The notes beneath the pieces are model-generated. The model was given only the letters and a program-made list of their open reading frames with translations, made no database searches and was not told where the DNA came from. Source: Gemmata sp. (GTDB lineage: Bacteria > Planctomycetota > Planctomycetia > Gemmatales > Gemmataceae). Taken from it: DNA of 34,985 nucleotides. The stretch spans positions 1-34,985 of the forward strand of contig JANWYJ010000060.1 of assembly GCA_025055115.1 (NCBI GenBank), written 5' to 3'. The translations under genes were made by a program, and so were the position numbers. Every line of letters starts with the position of its first letter. Within the stretch, counting starts at the first letter, position 1. Below, in pieces: positions 25,860-34,985 of the stretch.

Positions 25860-27674
25860 ATGAAGATTGGGATCGACTTACGCTCACTAGACACCGAAGC
25901 TGCCTCCGGTGCGCTTCTTGGCGCGACCCTCCGCGAACTGTTGGCCAGCGATGCCGAGAATACTTATGTCGTCTTTCACACTCTGAACAATTATCACCTC
26001 CTCGAGGATACTCCGCCCCGCGTCATACGGTACACATATTCACTATTGCGCTTCACGGAAGAATTACAAGGTCGGTTGGAGTACGAAAACGATTACGATA
26101 TTCTTTTTCGGGTCGATCCCGCGGGCCGGCCCGAGCGGTTCCCACTGCAGCGGCAGATCGTCTATCTGTCGCAGTGGCCCTCGCACGAACCCCGGCAACT
26201 CACCGAAGCCCAACGCACCCGGCGGCGGGAGCTTCACGCCTACCAAACCGGCGGCGGGGCCTTCGCGGTGCCCGACGCCGCCACCTTACAGGCCCTCCAG
26301 GCCGATGATTGGACGACAATAGACGATCTGTTCGTCCTCCCCGTTGGGGCTGCCGGCGTGGCGGTTTTGCAGGCAGCATTCCAGCGTGTCGCAGCACGTG
26401 CCCGAGGGCCGTGCGTGCGGGTGAGTACGCCACCGGTGGTGTCGATTGTCACACCGTCGTTCAATCAAGGGAAGTTTATTCGTCAAACAATCGACAGCGT
26501 GCTCCAACAAGACTACCCACACATCGACTACCGGGTGGTCGATGGTGGCTCCACCGACGGAACTCTCGAAATACTCAAAAGTTACGGCAATCGGCTGCAA
26601 TGGACCTCAGAAAAGGATCGCGGGCAAGCCCATGCGATCAACAAAGGCCTGGCCCAGGCCCGCGGCGACATCTTCGCCTACCTCAATTCCGACGACCTGT
26701 TACGGCCCGGAGCGGTGGCCCGTGTGGTGCAGCACTTCCACGAGCGACCCGCCTGCGATTTGGTCTACGGTCGTGATGCCATGATCGACCACAACGGCCA
26801 TTATCTGCGAATGTATCCGACGGCCGACTATTCCTTTGAACGGCTGGTTCACGAATGCTGCATCAGTCAACCGGCGACGTTTTGGCGAAAACGACTGGCG
26901 AAGATCGTTGGTCCCTTCAACGAATCGCTGCATCTGATGATGGATTATGATTACTGGCTGCGGGCCGATCGCGCCGGTGGGGTTCTCGAACATATTCCTG
27001 AGGTGCTGGCGCAGACGCGGGTACATCGTGACGCAAAATCCAGCGGCGCGGGGAAAATCGAGCAATACCAACGCGAATTCTTCCGCGAATTATTTGCCAT
27101 CTCCATTGAACATGCCGGCTATGTCAGCCCGCATTACATTTTGCAATGGCTGTACGCGGCCGTGTTTTACCCTTACCCGTGGACACGGCCCCACGCCGAT
27201 CTGATCAACTACCTGTGCCAACGCTGGTACCACCAGCGCTACCGCTGTGGCATGAGCCGCTGGCAGACGCTGCGGATGTTAGCTCGGGAGGAATGGTGGC
27301 GGGTGCTGCGACGGCTATTGCGCCCCATGCGTTGTCTCGATCCGCGGCAGTGGTTTTGTGCCACCGCCCCAGCCGGATTGGATTTGGGACCGGATTTGTG
27401 GCTTGGTCCCGAGAACGCCTGTCCCCACCCGGGGGGTCCGCTGCGGTTGACGGGCTTTGCCGCATGTGATTGTGTCCTCAGTATTTACGCCGACCGGCAA
27501 GAATTGGCCGTCGTTCCCTTACAAGCGCAGACGCCCACGGATGTGAAGTTGGACGTGCCGCAACCAGGGGTCGTGCGCCTGCGTTTCTCGCACGCCGACA
27601 CGCTCCCCGATGGCCGCCGTGTTTGCTTCAAGCTGCAAGGAACCACCCTTCCCACCCACCGCGCTGTGGCTTAG
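25860..27674 (+). CDS. Family 2 glycosyltransferase with GT4-like N-terminal remnant
   Basis: The product has 604 residues and the start is preceded by CGGAG. Residues 1-130 begin MKIGIDLRSLDTEAASGALL, a typical opening of GT4 (GT-B) glycosyltransferases, but the remainder of a GT4 domain is absent. Residues 190-400 form a GT2 (GT-A) domain: VSIVTPSFNQGKFIRQTIDS, then VVDGGSTDGT, and the metal-binding-type FAYLNSDDLL (D278/D279). FMMDYDYWLR-like LMMDYDYWLRADRAG lies near the acceptor site. The last 200 residues include amphipathic and basic segments and a beta-rich end. It probably transfers sugar to a surface polysaccharide or glycan at the inner membrane. Donor and acceptor are unknown, and no polysaccharide operon surrounds it. 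Confidence 0.8.
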   Translation: MKIGIDLRSLDTEAASGALLGATLRELLASDAENTYVVFHTLNNYHLLEDTPPRVIRYTYSLLRFTEELQGRLEYENDYDILFRVDPAGRPERFPLQRQIVYLSQWPSHEPRQLTEAQRTRRRELHAYQTGGGAFAVPDAATLQALQADDWTTIDDLFVLPVGAAGVAVLQAAFQRVAARARGPCVRVSTPPVVSIVTPSFNQGKFIRQTIDSVLQQDYPHIDYRVVDGGSTDGTLEILKSYGNRLQWTSEKDRGQAHAINKGLAQARGDIFAYLNSDDLLRPGAVARVVQHFHERPACDLVYGRDAMIDHNGHYLRMYPTADYSFERLVHECCISQPATFWRKRLAKIVGPFNESLHLMMDYDYWLRADRAGGVLEHIPEVLAQTRVHRDAKSSGAGKIEQYQREFFRELFAISIEHAGYVSPHYILQWLYAAVFYPYPWTRPHADLINYLCQRWYHQRYRCGMSRWQTLRMLAREEWWRVLRRLLRPMRCLDPRQWFCATAPAGLDLGPDLWLGPENACPHPGGPLRLTGFAACDCVLSIYADRQELAVVPLQAQTPTDVKLDVPQPGVVRLRFSHADTLPDGRRVCFKLQGTTLPTHRAVA

Positions 27675-32433: not shown

Positions 32434-32769
32434 TTAGGCAACACACGCCATCATGGCCGCCGCTTGTTCGCGAAGAAATTCCAGCGGCCGCGGGTCGCCT
32501 TCGTAGCGAGCATCGGCCGGATGGAACAACGCTTGCTTGAGCCGGGCACGCTGTTCCAACACTGCCAGTTTTTCGGGTGTTCCTGGCGCCGCCGTGGTGG
32601 GCACCGGTGGCAATGGCGCTTTGCCACAAAAATTGCCAATGCCTCGCCGAGCAAACTTGCTTGTGGGCGGGTATTGGTCTTTCACGCCGGGGGTGTAGTA
32701 GCAGGTCCAGCACAGCCCCCGCGGACGGTTCACTTTCGACTTGGAACAATGGCGACAAATGGTAGTCAT
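32434..32769 (-). CDS. Small CxxC...CxxC protein, planctomycete-type
   Basis: The product has 111 residues. The N-terminus holds two CxxC knuckles, ICRHCSKSKV (C5, C8) and GLCWTCYYTPG (C20, C23), a compact zinc-binding module. It is followed by VKDQYPPTSKFARRG, a conserved-looking basic segment, and a helical C-terminus (LEQRARLKQALFHPAD). I recall similar small proteins in Gemmata-like genomes, annotated as hypothetical. Binding of nucleic acid or protein is possible but unproven. It lies downstream of the 147-residue gene on the same strand (121 bp) and is probably read from the same strong promoter at 33440-33468. Confidence 0.65.
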   Translation of the reverse strand: MTTICRHCSKSKVNRPRGLCWTCYYTPGVKDQYPPTSKFARRGIGNFCGKAPLPPVPTTAAPGTPEKLAVLEQRARLKQALFHPADARYEGDPRPLEFLREQAAAMMACVA

Positions 32770-32853
32770 GGTTATTTCCAGGGTGGAGTTGGGGAAAAAG
32801 TCGTTAGATAGTCCGAAACTCTTGGCAGTTGAAGCTCATGAGGTTGTGTTGGG

Positions 32854-32895
32854 ACGGCAAACCCGCGCGTTACGACGGCAAACGCGCGCGTTACG
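32854..32895. repeat. 21-bp tandem duplication at a gene stop
   Basis: ACGGCAAACCCGCGCGTTACG (32854-32874) and ACGGCAAACGCGCGCGTTACG (32875-32895) are adjacent. The second contains the TAA stop of the minus-strand gene (32891-32893), and the first supplies another in-frame TAA seven codons later. Confidence 0.95.
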
Positions 32896-33334
32896 CTGCA
32901 ACGACATCGGCCGTGGGCGCAGCAGCAGCCGGTGCCAGTTGGTTCAACGGCCATCGCTCCGCCAGTGCCCTTTCGACCTCCGCAAGCAATTCCCGACGCA
33001 TCTCGTCCCGCGGAGTGTCGTCGAACCAATTGAGAAACCACCGACACGCGGCCGGTTCGCCCAACCGCTGATCAGCCTCGAAACAGACCCGGGCGAAAAA
33101 TTCTTCCACTTCTCCCACGGTCTCCAGATCATCCCCTTGCCAGGCGCAGTAACCCAAGGCACACGCGGCCTCGACCGGCCAATCGCTGACACACATCAAC
33201 GGTGGGGGTGTGGTGGTGCTACCTTGGGTCAGTCGCGGATCATCGCTGACCAACGCATCACGCAGAGCCTGCAAACCCGCGGTGGATAACACAGGCACAA
33301 ACCCCTCACGCCAAACTCGACGCCAGCTTTCCAT
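32891..33334 (-). CDS. Acidic hypothetical protein behind a strong promoter
   Basis: The product has 147 residues from ATG 33334, chosen because GGGAGGGG lies just upstream. The frame is open further up through the structured leader, where ATG 33421 has no ribosome-binding site. The sequence is Trp- and acidic-rich and mostly helical: ESWRRVWREGFVPVLSTAGL, SDWPVEAACALGYCAWQGDD, VGEVEEFFARVCFEADQRLG and CRWFLNWFDDTPRDEMRREL. No signal peptide or membrane helix is present, and I do not recognise a family. Its expression is likely high, given the near-consensus promoter. It may form a two-gene unit with the CxxC protein downstream. Confidence 0.65.
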   Translation of the reverse strand: MESWRRVWREGFVPVLSTAGLQALRDALVSDDPRLTQGSTTTPPPLMCVSDWPVEAACALGYCAWQGDDLETVGEVEEFFARVCFEADQRLGEPAACRWFLNWFDDTPRDEMRRELLAEVERALAERWPLNQLAPAAAAPTADVVAA

Positions 33335-33356
33335 AGTTGCCCCTCCCACGTTTGTT

Positions 33357-33372
33357 CGAGCGTTGCCGCTCG
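33357..33372 (-). ncRNA. GNRA-capped hairpin in the mRNA leader
   Basis: On the minus strand CGAGCG-GCAA-CGCTCG forms a 6-bp stem closed by a GCAA (GNRA) tetraloop, 23 nt before the start codon at 33334. It may position or protect the ribosome-binding region. Confidence 0.5.
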
Positions 33373-33397
33373 TCCCCGTTCGTTGTGGTCGATGGTG

Positions 33398-33434
33398 GTG
33401 TCGGGTGGTGGAACTCCTCATTAGCACCCGACAC
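33398..33434 (-). ncRNA. 10-bp stem-loop at the predicted 5' end of the transcript
   Basis: On the minus strand GTGTCGGGTG pairs perfectly with CACCCGACAC around a 17-nt loop that contains AGGAG. The stem begins about where transcription from the 33440-33468 promoter should start. A 5'-terminal hairpin like this can stabilise mRNA, and the loop GGA is also the core recognised by CsrA. Structure is seen; function is inferred. Confidence 0.55.
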
Positions 33435-33439
33435 ACGAA

Positions 33440-33468
33440 TTTATACATATGTTCACTCACACTGTCAA
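33440..33468 (-). promoter_or_regulatory. Near-consensus sigma70 promoter
   Basis: On the minus strand TTGACA (33463-33468) and TATAAA (33440-33445) are separated by exactly 17 bp. Upstream lies an A-rich tract (plus strand: runs of T at about 33482-33498), which resembles an UP element. This is the best promoter seen in the window and drives the gene at 32891-33334. Confidence 0.85.
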
Positions 33469-33527
33469 CACCGTAGAGGAATTTTTTTCTTTTTTTTTGG
33501 TTGCCAAATGGCCATTCATCAAATTAT

Positions 33528-33575
33528 TAGACATTTCTAGACTTCTCTCAGAAATGAAATTAGACAAAAGTAGAC
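33528..33575. promoter_or_regulatory. Two pairs of TAGAC motifs, operator-like
   Basis: TAGAC occurs at 33528-33532, 33538-33542, 33561-33565 and 33571-33575. Within each pair the copies are 10 bp apart (one helical turn), and the pairs are 33 bp apart. They lie 60-110 bp upstream of the strong promoter in AT-rich DNA. A dimeric activator or repressor site is possible; the binding protein is unknown. Confidence 0.45.
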
Positions 33576-34061
33576 ATCGCTCACCCCACCGCTCCCACTT
33601 GTCGGCAGTTGCAACAACTTCCGCCAACAACGACCAACGGCGCGCAAAAAAACCGTGACCCCGGGGCTTCTTTCCCAGAGCCGGCTTTCCAAGAACCCGC
33701 TTTCCCTGACGCTTGGCTCCAACGTGGCTGAGCGAACCGACAACGTGGCTGGTGCCCCACCTCCATCTCAGCTGGCTGACGAAGCTTGCTCAGCTGGCCG
33801 ACGAAGCTTGCTCAGTTGGCCGACGAAGCTTGGCTTTGGCCGACGAAGCTTGGCTTTGACCGACGAAGCTTGGCTTTGGCCGACGAAGCTTGGCTTTCTT
33901 CCAGCAACTCGCGAAGAAGTGAGGGGGTTCTCGTCTCAGCCGTTGTTCCCGGGCAGCGGTGAGAATCTCCGCTACGATGCAGCCAGAAAGCGTTGAGGAG
34001 TTAACATGAATAAGGAATTAACATGAGAAGGTGAAAGGACGTTGGAAGGTGAGAATCTCCC
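33576..34061. other. Non-coding region with tandem and dispersed repeats
   Basis: No supported gene. It holds the 20/22-bp tandem array (33768-33893), a copy of the 3' end of the TIM-barrel gene (33958-33996) and a short duplication around GAGTTAACATGAATAAGGAATTAACATGAG (33998-34026). The reading frame across 33655-33996 is made of the tandem repeat and is not a credible protein. Confidence 0.6.
33768..33893. repeat. Tandem array, three 22-bp and three 20-bp units
   Basis: Three units of TCAGCTGGCCGACGAAGCTTGC type (33768-33833) are followed by three units of CTTTGGCCGACGAAGCTTGG type (33834-33893). All share (G/A)CCGACGAAGCTTG with one variant base in the first unit. The change of unit length from 22 to 20 midway suggests two expansion steps. 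Confidence 0.95.
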
Positions 34062-34086
34062 CTACGAGATAGCCAGATAGCGTTGG
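33958..34086. repeat. Copy of the TIM-barrel gene 3' end, 90-bp offset
   Basis: Segments 33958-33996 and 34048-34086 are related (GGTGAGAATCTCC start). The second contains the last codons and TAG stop of the minus-strand gene. The first holds a TAG in the same frame, 90 nt further on. Confidence 0.85.
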
Positions 34087-34898
34087 AGAAACTCGAACGA
34101 TCGGCGGGCGGTGGCCACAGCATCGTGGCTGTGCCGGCTCAGTTCGACATACACACCACCGCGGTACCGCGCGGCCCGCAATCCCGTGAACACGTCGGCG
34201 AAATCGACTTCTCCTTCACCAAACATCCGGTGATCGTGAATGCCGCGAAGCATATCCTCGATGTGGATGTTCCAGAGCACCGGTTGCCACTGCGTCAGAA
34301 ACCGGCTGACGGGTAACTCGCCTTGGCACACCAAGTGACCGATGTCGAGGGTGAGGCCGAAGTACGGATGATGGACGCGGTCGAACAGTTCGGCGAAGCG
34401 GTCGAGGGTATCGATGAACATACCCGGTTCTGGCTCGAAGGCCAGCCGGACATTGCGCGTCGCGGCGTACTCGGCCAGGCGGGAGCAACCATCCACGAGC
34501 CGCTGCATCAGTTCCGCAGCCGGGGCCTCGTCGGTGGGCGTTCCAGACCAGAAGCTGACGGCCTCGGCCTGTAGGTCGGCGGCAATGTCGATGCATTGTT
34601 TCAAGAAGCAGAAGCGCGTCTGGCGTTCGGTGGATGATGGGCTGAGCAGTGTCGGTTGGTGCTTGCGGCGAGGATCGAGGAGAAAACGGGCACCCGTTTC
34701 GATCACGCAGCGGAGTTGATGGTAGGCCAATTGCTTCCGCACAGCGGTGAGGCGGTCGGGTAGTTCCGGGGCCAATGGGTCGAGGTGGTGAACGTCGAGA
34801 GTGAGGGCCACGCCGCGATAGCCAAGGCTGGCGATGATGGCAAGAGCATCGTCGAGCCGGTGATGGGCAAAGCCGTTGGTGTTGTAGCCGAGAAACAT
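34062..34898 (-). CDS. Sugar phosphate isomerase/epimerase-like TIM-barrel protein
   Basis: The product has 278 residues, normal for xylose-isomerase-like TIM barrels (PF01261). It begins MFLGYNTNGFAHHRLDDALA and has metal-site candidates typical of the family: LAFEPEPGMFID (Glu), LTLDIGHLVCQ (Asp/His), NIHIEDMLRGIHDHR (His/Glu/Asp) and GGVYVELSRHSH (Glu). Such enzymes isomerise or epimerise sugars or related alpha-hydroxy carbonyls with a divalent metal. Genes of this type also occur in ebo metabolite-transport clusters, but the neighbours that would show this lie outside the window. The start at 34898 is preceded by GGGGGG, then by a 16-bp tandem repeat. Confidence 0.75.
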   Translation of the reverse strand: MFLGYNTNGFAHHRLDDALAIIASLGYRGVALTLDVHHLDPLAPELPDRLTAVRKQLAYHQLRCVIETGARFLLDPRRKHQPTLLSPSSTERQTRFCFLKQCIDIAADLQAEAVSFWSGTPTDEAPAAELMQRLVDGCSRLAEYAATRNVRLAFEPEPGMFIDTLDRFAELFDRVHHPYFGLTLDIGHLVCQGELPVSRFLTQWQPVLWNIHIEDMLRGIHDHRMFGEGEVDFADVFTGLRAARYRGGVYVELSRHSHDAVATARRSFEFLQRYLAIS

Positions 34899-34910: not shown

Positions 34911-34985
34911 CTTGGCTGGTGATTCGCTTGGCTGGTGATTCGCTTGGCTGGTGATTCGCTTGGCTGGTGATTCGCTTGGCTGGTG
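34911..34985. repeat. 16-bp tandem repeat running off the right edge
   Basis: CTTGGCTGGTGATTCG is repeated perfectly four times (34911-34974), and a partial fifth copy reaches the window end. It starts 12 bp upstream of the TIM-barrel start codon, so it occupies the place of that gene's promoter or leader. Confidence 0.97.

Follow-up and report, generated by a model that had tools for sequence, protein, structure and literature searches.

A conserved two-gene operon of Gemmataceae with a predicted LexA-type operator in its promoter

The stretch of DNA analysed here, referred to as the window, comprises 34,985 nucleotides (approx. 35 kb) of contig C74 from a Gemmata-like genome of 4.93 Mb (G000, hereafter the own genome), and carries on its minus strand two small genes that we named P1 and P2 (Table 1). 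The original prediction for this locus described an acidic helical protein and a double CxxC protein encoded behind a strong promoter, and this anatomy was recovered: the two proteins have the character ascribed to them, the -35 and -10 hexamers are separated by a spacer of 17 nt and preceded by an A-rich tract, and a strong ribosome-binding site lies ahead of P1. The contrast between an AT-rich promoter and GC-rich surroundings is also real, with a GC content of 0.39-0.40 at positions 33400-33624 versus approx. 0.6 around them. Our promoter scan missed the P1 promoter because it demands a T at the last position of the -10 hexamer; comparison of upstream regions found the same promoter layout again in host loci across Gemmataceae. 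Since the layout of the locus recurs across the family and both genes are under purifying selection, it goes beyond what chance would produce. Within the 35-kb window, no Rfam family was matched at gathering scores and the tRNA scans gave no tRNA. Upstream of the operon, short tandem repeats (ccgacgaagcttgg... and cttggctggtgattcg..., at 33777-33897 and 34916-34985) lie on either side of a gene at 34062-34898, which we take to be sugar-isomerase-like. In the downstream context, csrA was encountered in 17 of 59 loci within the flanks retrieved, many of which are short, and a presumably asparaginase-like gene was seen near P1-P2 in 12 of 59; csrA and this gene were observed in the closer relatives (L065-L095).

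Table 1. Features of the P1-P2 locus (feature, window positions, strand, basis).
P1, first gene, 147 aa, acidic, helical, pI 4.3	32891..33334	-	
P2, second gene, 111 aa, basic, pI 9.6	32434..32769	-	
csrA, downstream context of P1-P2	31435..31638	-	Pfam CsrA, E 6.6e-24
-35 hexamer TTGACA	33463..33468	-	sequence; recurs in aligned host loci
-10 hexamer TATAAA	33440..33445	-	sequence; recurs in aligned host loci
A-rich tract 5' of the promoter	33482..33498	-	sequence
LexA-type palindrome AGTGAACATATGTATAAA (predicted) over spacer and -10	33440..33457	-	matrix, 18.6 bits; spacer-shuffle control
TGTCTA box, distal copy of the tandem with 10-bp period	33571..33576	-	box count, phasing
TGTCTA box, second tandem copy	33561..33566	-	box count, phasing
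TGTCTA box, proximal	33528..33533	-	box count, phasing
Leader stem-loop where the transcript is predicted to start; stem of 10 bp, loop of 17 nt	33398..33434	-	sequence; pair counts
AATGAGGAGTT, conserved, purine-rich, ribosome-binding-site-like, in the leader loop	33412..33422	-	aligned loci
Ribosome-binding site GGGAGGGG of P1	33340..33347	-	sequence; precedes ATG 33334

The P2 protein starts with a CxxC-N11-CxxC arrangement that resembles a zinc ribbon and ends in a conserved tail, PGTPEK...LFHPxDA; its predicted model is only moderately confident (pTM 0.47). The model of P1 is confident (pLDDT 93.3) and mostly helical, and the host copies of this protein have a median pI of 4.5. Close relatives have a P1 that is approx. 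80% identical to the copy in the window, and for distant ones the identity is 48-60%. Purifying selection acts on both genes, with dN values of 0.04-0.21 in 24 pairs in which dS was at least 1.0, or saturated in 11. Neither protein matched Pfam, NCBIfam or PADLOC at E<=1, the best PHROGs values were only 0.13-0.15, and neither matched the named phage records at E<=0.01. Profiles of P1 and P2 searched against PDB sequences reached best E values of 0.41 and 0.97; the P1 model gave nothing at E<=0.001 in PDB and BFVD, and likewise the P2 model in PDB. For the fold of P1, the best PDB comparison had an E value of 4.5 with Foldseek and a Z score of 3.5 among 97 chains with VIA. According to its model, P1 is an acidic all-helical protein for which no fold match was found in PDB or BFVD. 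The structure alignment A3 had 59 rows (P0002 and 58 of 72 references, L109, L119 and L138 having been removed earlier and the other omitted rows being mostly near-duplicates), and alignment A4 had 37 (P0001 and 36 of 52).

A search of 59 genomes, the own genome and its relatives, detected P2 in 37 and P1 in 29; all 29 P1-positive genomes also carry P2, and thus the two proteins co-occur as had been anticipated, whereas P2 without P1 was seen in eight of the 59. In a sample of the phylum of 392 genomes, among the matches listed, P1 appeared at E<=1e-5 in the own genome alone; a maximum of ten first-look candidates was scored in each genome, and weak relatives could escape such a search. A collection of named genomes contributed 60 P1 loci, most of them labelled Gemmataceae or just planctomycetes, and a few carrying odd labels (Bacteroidales, Bryobacteraceae, Singulisphaera, Isosphaera); the suggested link of the family to Gemmata-like genomes is supported. 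L124, a fragment of 26 residues, was excluded from all locus counts. P2 lies downstream of P1 in 50 of the 53 host loci that have 1.6 kb of 3' sequence, and the gap between the genes ranges from 33 to 350 bp with a median of 77 (53 loci). P1-P2 is a family-wide operon of Gemmataceae with one conserved promoter. The view of a self-contained, variable or defence-type cassette is not supported, given that the pair is kept across Gemmataceae behind that promoter and that no PADLOC family was matched.

The leader had been described as containing a stem-loop at the predicted start of the transcript, followed by a GNRA hairpin. The first structure exists as a perfect 10-bp inverted repeat, formed by GTGTCGGGTG (33434-33425) and CACCCGACAC (33407-33398) on the minus strand; nevertheless, its stability is ordinary, since the leaders were not clearly more stable than their shuffles (mean z of -0.51 for 28 leaders and -0.67 for the 18 closest), and although the arms pair in 89.6% of the cells, covariation is almost nil, with one pair changed on both sides. 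For this reason, the leader was discarded as a strongly structured RNA. The GNRA hairpin is present at 33372-33357 (6-bp stem, GCAA loop), but among the loci scanned a related form appeared only in L066, the closest relative. The stem is conserved, and so is the sequence in its loop: the window carries TGAGGAGTT, as do its 17 closest loci (the range L065-L082, leaving aside the paralogue L081), and overall it was found in 28 of 60 host upstream regions. What can be claimed for the leader is thus a highly conserved sequence within a stem that has weak support, and the conserved loop contains a GGA. Two further candidates were rejected: a regulon defined by AATGAGGAGTT, of which the own genome has two copies, the control level, with the other copy apparently within a reading frame; and a leader peptide from ATGAGGAGT, whose ATG or frame, as judged by eye, is not conserved between species.

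The alignment of P1 promoters revealed more than a sigma-70 promoter needs. The upstream regions, of which 49 of 60 could be anchored, read TTGACA-N3-ATA-N-TG-N-AC-N4-GTATA, and the additional part is a palindrome with the best form TGTAC-N4-GTACA, part of which doubles as the -10 hexamer. Because of this palindrome, the promoters of lexA, recA and the Y-family polymerase were compared. The lexA promoters read AGTGGACGGGTGTA and the P1 promoters ATAGTGAACGGATGTA, while dinB-like promoters of the genus carry ATAGTGAACGGATG in several cases and AGTGAACTATTGTTCACT in one. A palindromic matrix, AGTGAACAnnTGTTCACT, was built from sequences of the genus that lie upstream of lexA (17 regions) and of dinB-like genes (13 regions), with P1 excluded; its seed was picked after the promoters had been inspected, and some of the training sites are poor. 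The top match of this matrix in the 35-kb window is the palindrome of the P1 promoter, followed by sites of 15.9 (at 26027) and 15.1 bits, with scores of 13-16 bits at other window positions; the site of the dinB-like gene in the own genome is weaker, at 11.9 bits. Among host loci, 49 of 59 have a site of at least 9 bits ahead of P1 (background, 0.11 per kb), compared with one of 16 viral loci. By manual reading of their positions, 44 of the 49 best host sites coincide with the promoter and the other five (L079, L082, L091, L102 and L113) do not, and in 46 of the 59 loci a 9-bit site has a -35-like TTG within 14 nt, which is a loose rule. The host loci below 9 bits are L081, L109, L110 (with a short upstream region), L111, L118 and L119, in addition to L068, L069, L073 and L075, in which a weaker site is visible. 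When only the bases between -35 and -10 were shuffled (2000 shuffles), the site score was exceptional at p<0.01 in 50 of 51 loci, the set with promoter and site in register out of 60 tried, in a control that takes the best-scoring site as its start. The left half-site TGNAC, which falls outside both the -10 and the -35 hexamers, is kept in 47 of these 51 loci.

When the matrix was applied without retraining to Planctomycetes outside the genus, it reached at least 9 bits before recA in seven of the eight loci and before lexA in 17 of the 21, which supports that it describes LexA sites. Within the genus, 14 of 16 recA loci score below 6 bits, therefore the main recA seems to be outside the regulon; only two second copies of recA reach 9 bits, L280 with 16.4 (G005) and L281 with 9.3 (G009). 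A simple box pattern has 13 matches in the own genome (control 3), mostly within reading frames, and this genome encodes a full LexA with its DNA-binding and S24 domains. In the sister family, which yielded no P1, the box is carried by four P2 genes of full length (G037, G038, G039 and G043), with 12.4-19.1 bits, 41-85 nt upstream; the incomplete P2 matches of G040 and G041 have no box upstream. No clear box precedes P2 in G030 and G035, two genomes of the window's family that have P2 alone (9.9 bits at -171 and 8.6 at -58, one of the four P2 matches of G035 having been read). The P1 copies without an adjacent P2 (L081, L111 and L118) are also without a box. From the palindrome common to lexA and dinB-like promoters, it is predicted that LexA very probably controls the P1-P2 operon; the regulation would be of the LexA type. 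The operator-like sites announced upstream of the promoter do exist as the TGTCTA boxes described below, and the LexA-type palindrome inside the promoter, which had gone unnamed, is found besides them.

Upstream of the promoter, 56 TGTCTA boxes were counted in 35 of 55 host loci, where 0.5 would be expected, nearly all in one orientation (the reverse form TAGACA occurs twice, 0.5 expected) and often 10 bp apart; L081, L109, L111, L118 and L119 were left out of this count. With the looser pattern TGT[CA]TA the count rises to 79 boxes, spread over 41 of the 55 loci (0.8 expected), but the TGTCTA count is preferred because the looser one also takes in the TGTATA of some -10 sites. The distances from TGT[CA]TA boxes to the LexA-type site cluster at approx. 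56, 65, 76, 86, 97-99, 108, 118-120, 129 and 139, and follow a period of 10.5 bp with R values of 0.81 (63 boxes) and 0.79 (nearest box in 36 loci), in a set of related loci that are not independent. The exact tandem TGTCTAN4TGTCTA was found only at the P1 locus in G008 and G011. From this arrangement we infer that the boxes are sites for a second factor, the simplest reading being an activator bound to one face of the DNA.

Similar motifs were seen elsewhere. Upstream of P2 in G043 (L057), a tandem TAGACAN4TAGACA in the opposite orientation lies just 5' of a perfect LexA-type palindrome, AGTATACAAATGTATACT. In addition, a dispersed and apparently intergenic element of G000 and G017 has ATGTCTACTTTTGTCTA-like boxes at one end and CAAAAGTAGACAT at the other, with a palindrome near its end, GTTCCACGTGGAAC, which we assume to be parS-like; TGTCTA boxes are common to this element and the P1 promoter. 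Its core has 37 matches in G000, at least 40 in G017 and fewer in G001, G004 and G015 (examples lie around position 1500 of L315, L317, L319, L321 and L323 in G000, and of L316-L340 in G017). The 18 complete copies are 158-160 (nine) or 179-180 (nine) nucleotides long, two helical turns apart, and no target-site duplication of 2-10 bp was found at any of them.

Relatives of both proteins also occur in phages. Among IMG/VR contigs, P1 is encoded at 16 loci and relatives of P2 at 65; in 15 of the 16 P1 loci, the 1.5 kb that follow P1 gave no P2. Many of the P2 relatives on viral contigs (L163-L205) match only the tail (PGTPEK...LFHPxD, approx. 30-55 residues) without the zinc-ribbon part, as though phages made use of the tail as a short binding motif. 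Twenty neighbours of viral P1 genes, chosen by eye from 11 of the 16 contigs, gave 13 informative matches, three matches to unknown families only and four without a match. The informative ones are uracil-DNA glycosylase (UDG), PD-(D/E)XK nuclease, Sak4, YqaJ, sliding clamp, prim-pol, clamp loader, RecA, two primase-like proteins, ribonucleotide reductase, DNA polymerase A and a methyltransferase, and with these eye-picked neighbours a replication or recombination gene lies near P1 on eight of the 16 contigs. A prophage-like region of two Gemmata-like genomes combines P1, a LexA DNA-binding domain, a Rad52-like gene and a sigma-like gene, with P2 approx. 6 kb further on (domains checked for the G009 copy). 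The LexA-domain protein is placed beside P1 and the Rad52-like gene (L054, 6174-6674; L053, 6078-7016); that of L054 has no match to the S24 peptidase, and could possibly be an uncleavable mimic of LexA. In the P1 tree, which is poorly resolved and rooted at the midpoint, viral rows fall among several host clades with 12 changes, at least four of them forced by well-supported branches, a pattern that would suit repeated exchange between host and phage, in either direction, rather than a single viral origin.

Taken as a whole, the best explanation, to which we assign a probability of about 0.75, is that P1-P2 is an SOS operon of Gemmataceae, which may act at replication or recombination; under this reading, the operon is probably a new component of the response of bacteria to DNA damage and not a mobile defence cassette. 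According to this proposal, LexA bound to the palindrome over the spacer and the -10 hexamer would keep a strong promoter shut, and upon DNA damage the RecA-driven self-cleavage of LexA would release a burst of P1 and P2, as suggested by the operator and the intact LexA of the own genome. A second factor may tune or activate the promoter from the TGTCTA boxes, most of which lie 55-140 bp upstream and which share one face of the helix. P2 is probably the older SOS gene, since the sister family has it behind the same box without P1, and P1 would have been added in Gemmataceae. As to the task of the operon, the one that seems most likely is binding or modulation of the replication or recombination machinery when DNA is damaged, given that P1 copies of phages are often near replication and recombination genes; this assignment is tentative, with odds below even. 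A more far-reaching version, which we consider unlikely, would make P1 and P2 a new class of SOS effectors, P1 with a new fold, that control replication or the cell cycle upon DNA damage in bacteria whose division machinery is not the usual one; P1 would be captured repeatedly by phages in order to take over the replisome of the damaged state, and the factor of the TGTCTA array would tie the operon to the dispersed parS-like elements.

Among the alternatives, the one that survives best, with a small share of the probability, is that P1 or P2 is a damage checkpoint factor that halts division or the initiation of replication, as a functional stand-in for SulA, in bacteria that are not known to possess FtsZ. 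An SOS-type promoter, small proteins and strong conservation would all be in agreement with such a role, but the phage copies near replication genes suit a role in replication equally well. Slightly less probable is that the palindrome is read by another regulator, which could be a LexA-like repressor of the phage type or have no relation to LexA, and that its likeness to lexA and dinB-like sites reflects common promoter features. The LexA DNA-binding domain without a peptidase domain in the prophage-like region that has a P1 copy, and the main recA without a box, point in that direction; nevertheless, common promoter features would hardly account for a half-site kept outside both hexamers, nor for a score that spacer shuffles rarely attain, and the box also precedes lexA, both within the genus and beyond it, as well as recA of other Planctomycetes. 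It is quite improbable that the operon is a domesticated prophage remnant with no present SOS role: the phage and prophage homologues speak in its favour, yet viral P1 rows are scattered among several host clades, in so far as that tree is resolved, and the promoter is kept in host copies. The least probable reading, a toxin-antitoxin or phage-defence cassette in which the acidic P1 neutralises the basic P2, has in its favour the order of the genes and a compact operon, and is contradicted by the absence of PADLOC matches at E<=1, by a pairing that is not obligatory (the eight genomes with P2 alone, the 15 viral loci) and by a family-wide distribution with a gap of variable length.

The SOS reading of P1-P2 provides a concrete and testable predicted LexA box for Gemmataceae, and an unrecognised predicted target operon that bears this box more regularly than recA in this genus. 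Given that P1 and P2 are uncharacterised and common to phages, they may open a new contact point between host DNA repair and phage replication.

When the locus is compared with known systems, three of them are pertinent. In mRNAs repressed by CsrA, a GGA is exposed in the loop of a leader hairpin, within an ANGGA core. The P1 leader shares a conserved loop with GGA, and csrA is nearby in the genus; however, its hairpin has little covariation support and the ANGGA core is absent. The Gram-positive LexA box is GAACN4GTTC, and the P1 box resembles it, as well as the cyanobacterial one, in having half-sites G[A/T]AC and GT[A/T]C separated by four bases, but differs in being extended to AGTGNACN4GTNCACT and in overlapping the -10 hexamer. 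In the literature, the cyanobacterial box is given as AGT-N4-11-ACT (PMC13416735), the LexA of Planctomycetes is reported not to recognise the E. coli motif (PMC3108266), and the derivation of motifs is described (PMC3323433, PMC7739468, PMC13416735); no definition of a LexA box for Gemmata or other Planctomycetes was found in the parts of the literature covered by our search, a coverage that takes in few of the subscription journals. The usual core of the SOS response consists of lexA, recA, dinB and umuDC, as stated in PMC8565304. Like the operons of the LexA (SOS) regulon, P1-P2 has a LexA-type palindrome over its promoter, as do the lexA and dinB-like genes of the genus and recA of other Planctomycetes. 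It differs from them in that its two proteins match no Pfam, NCBIfam or PADLOC family, in that the main recA of the genus is without the box, and in the extra, helically phased array upstream of the promoter.
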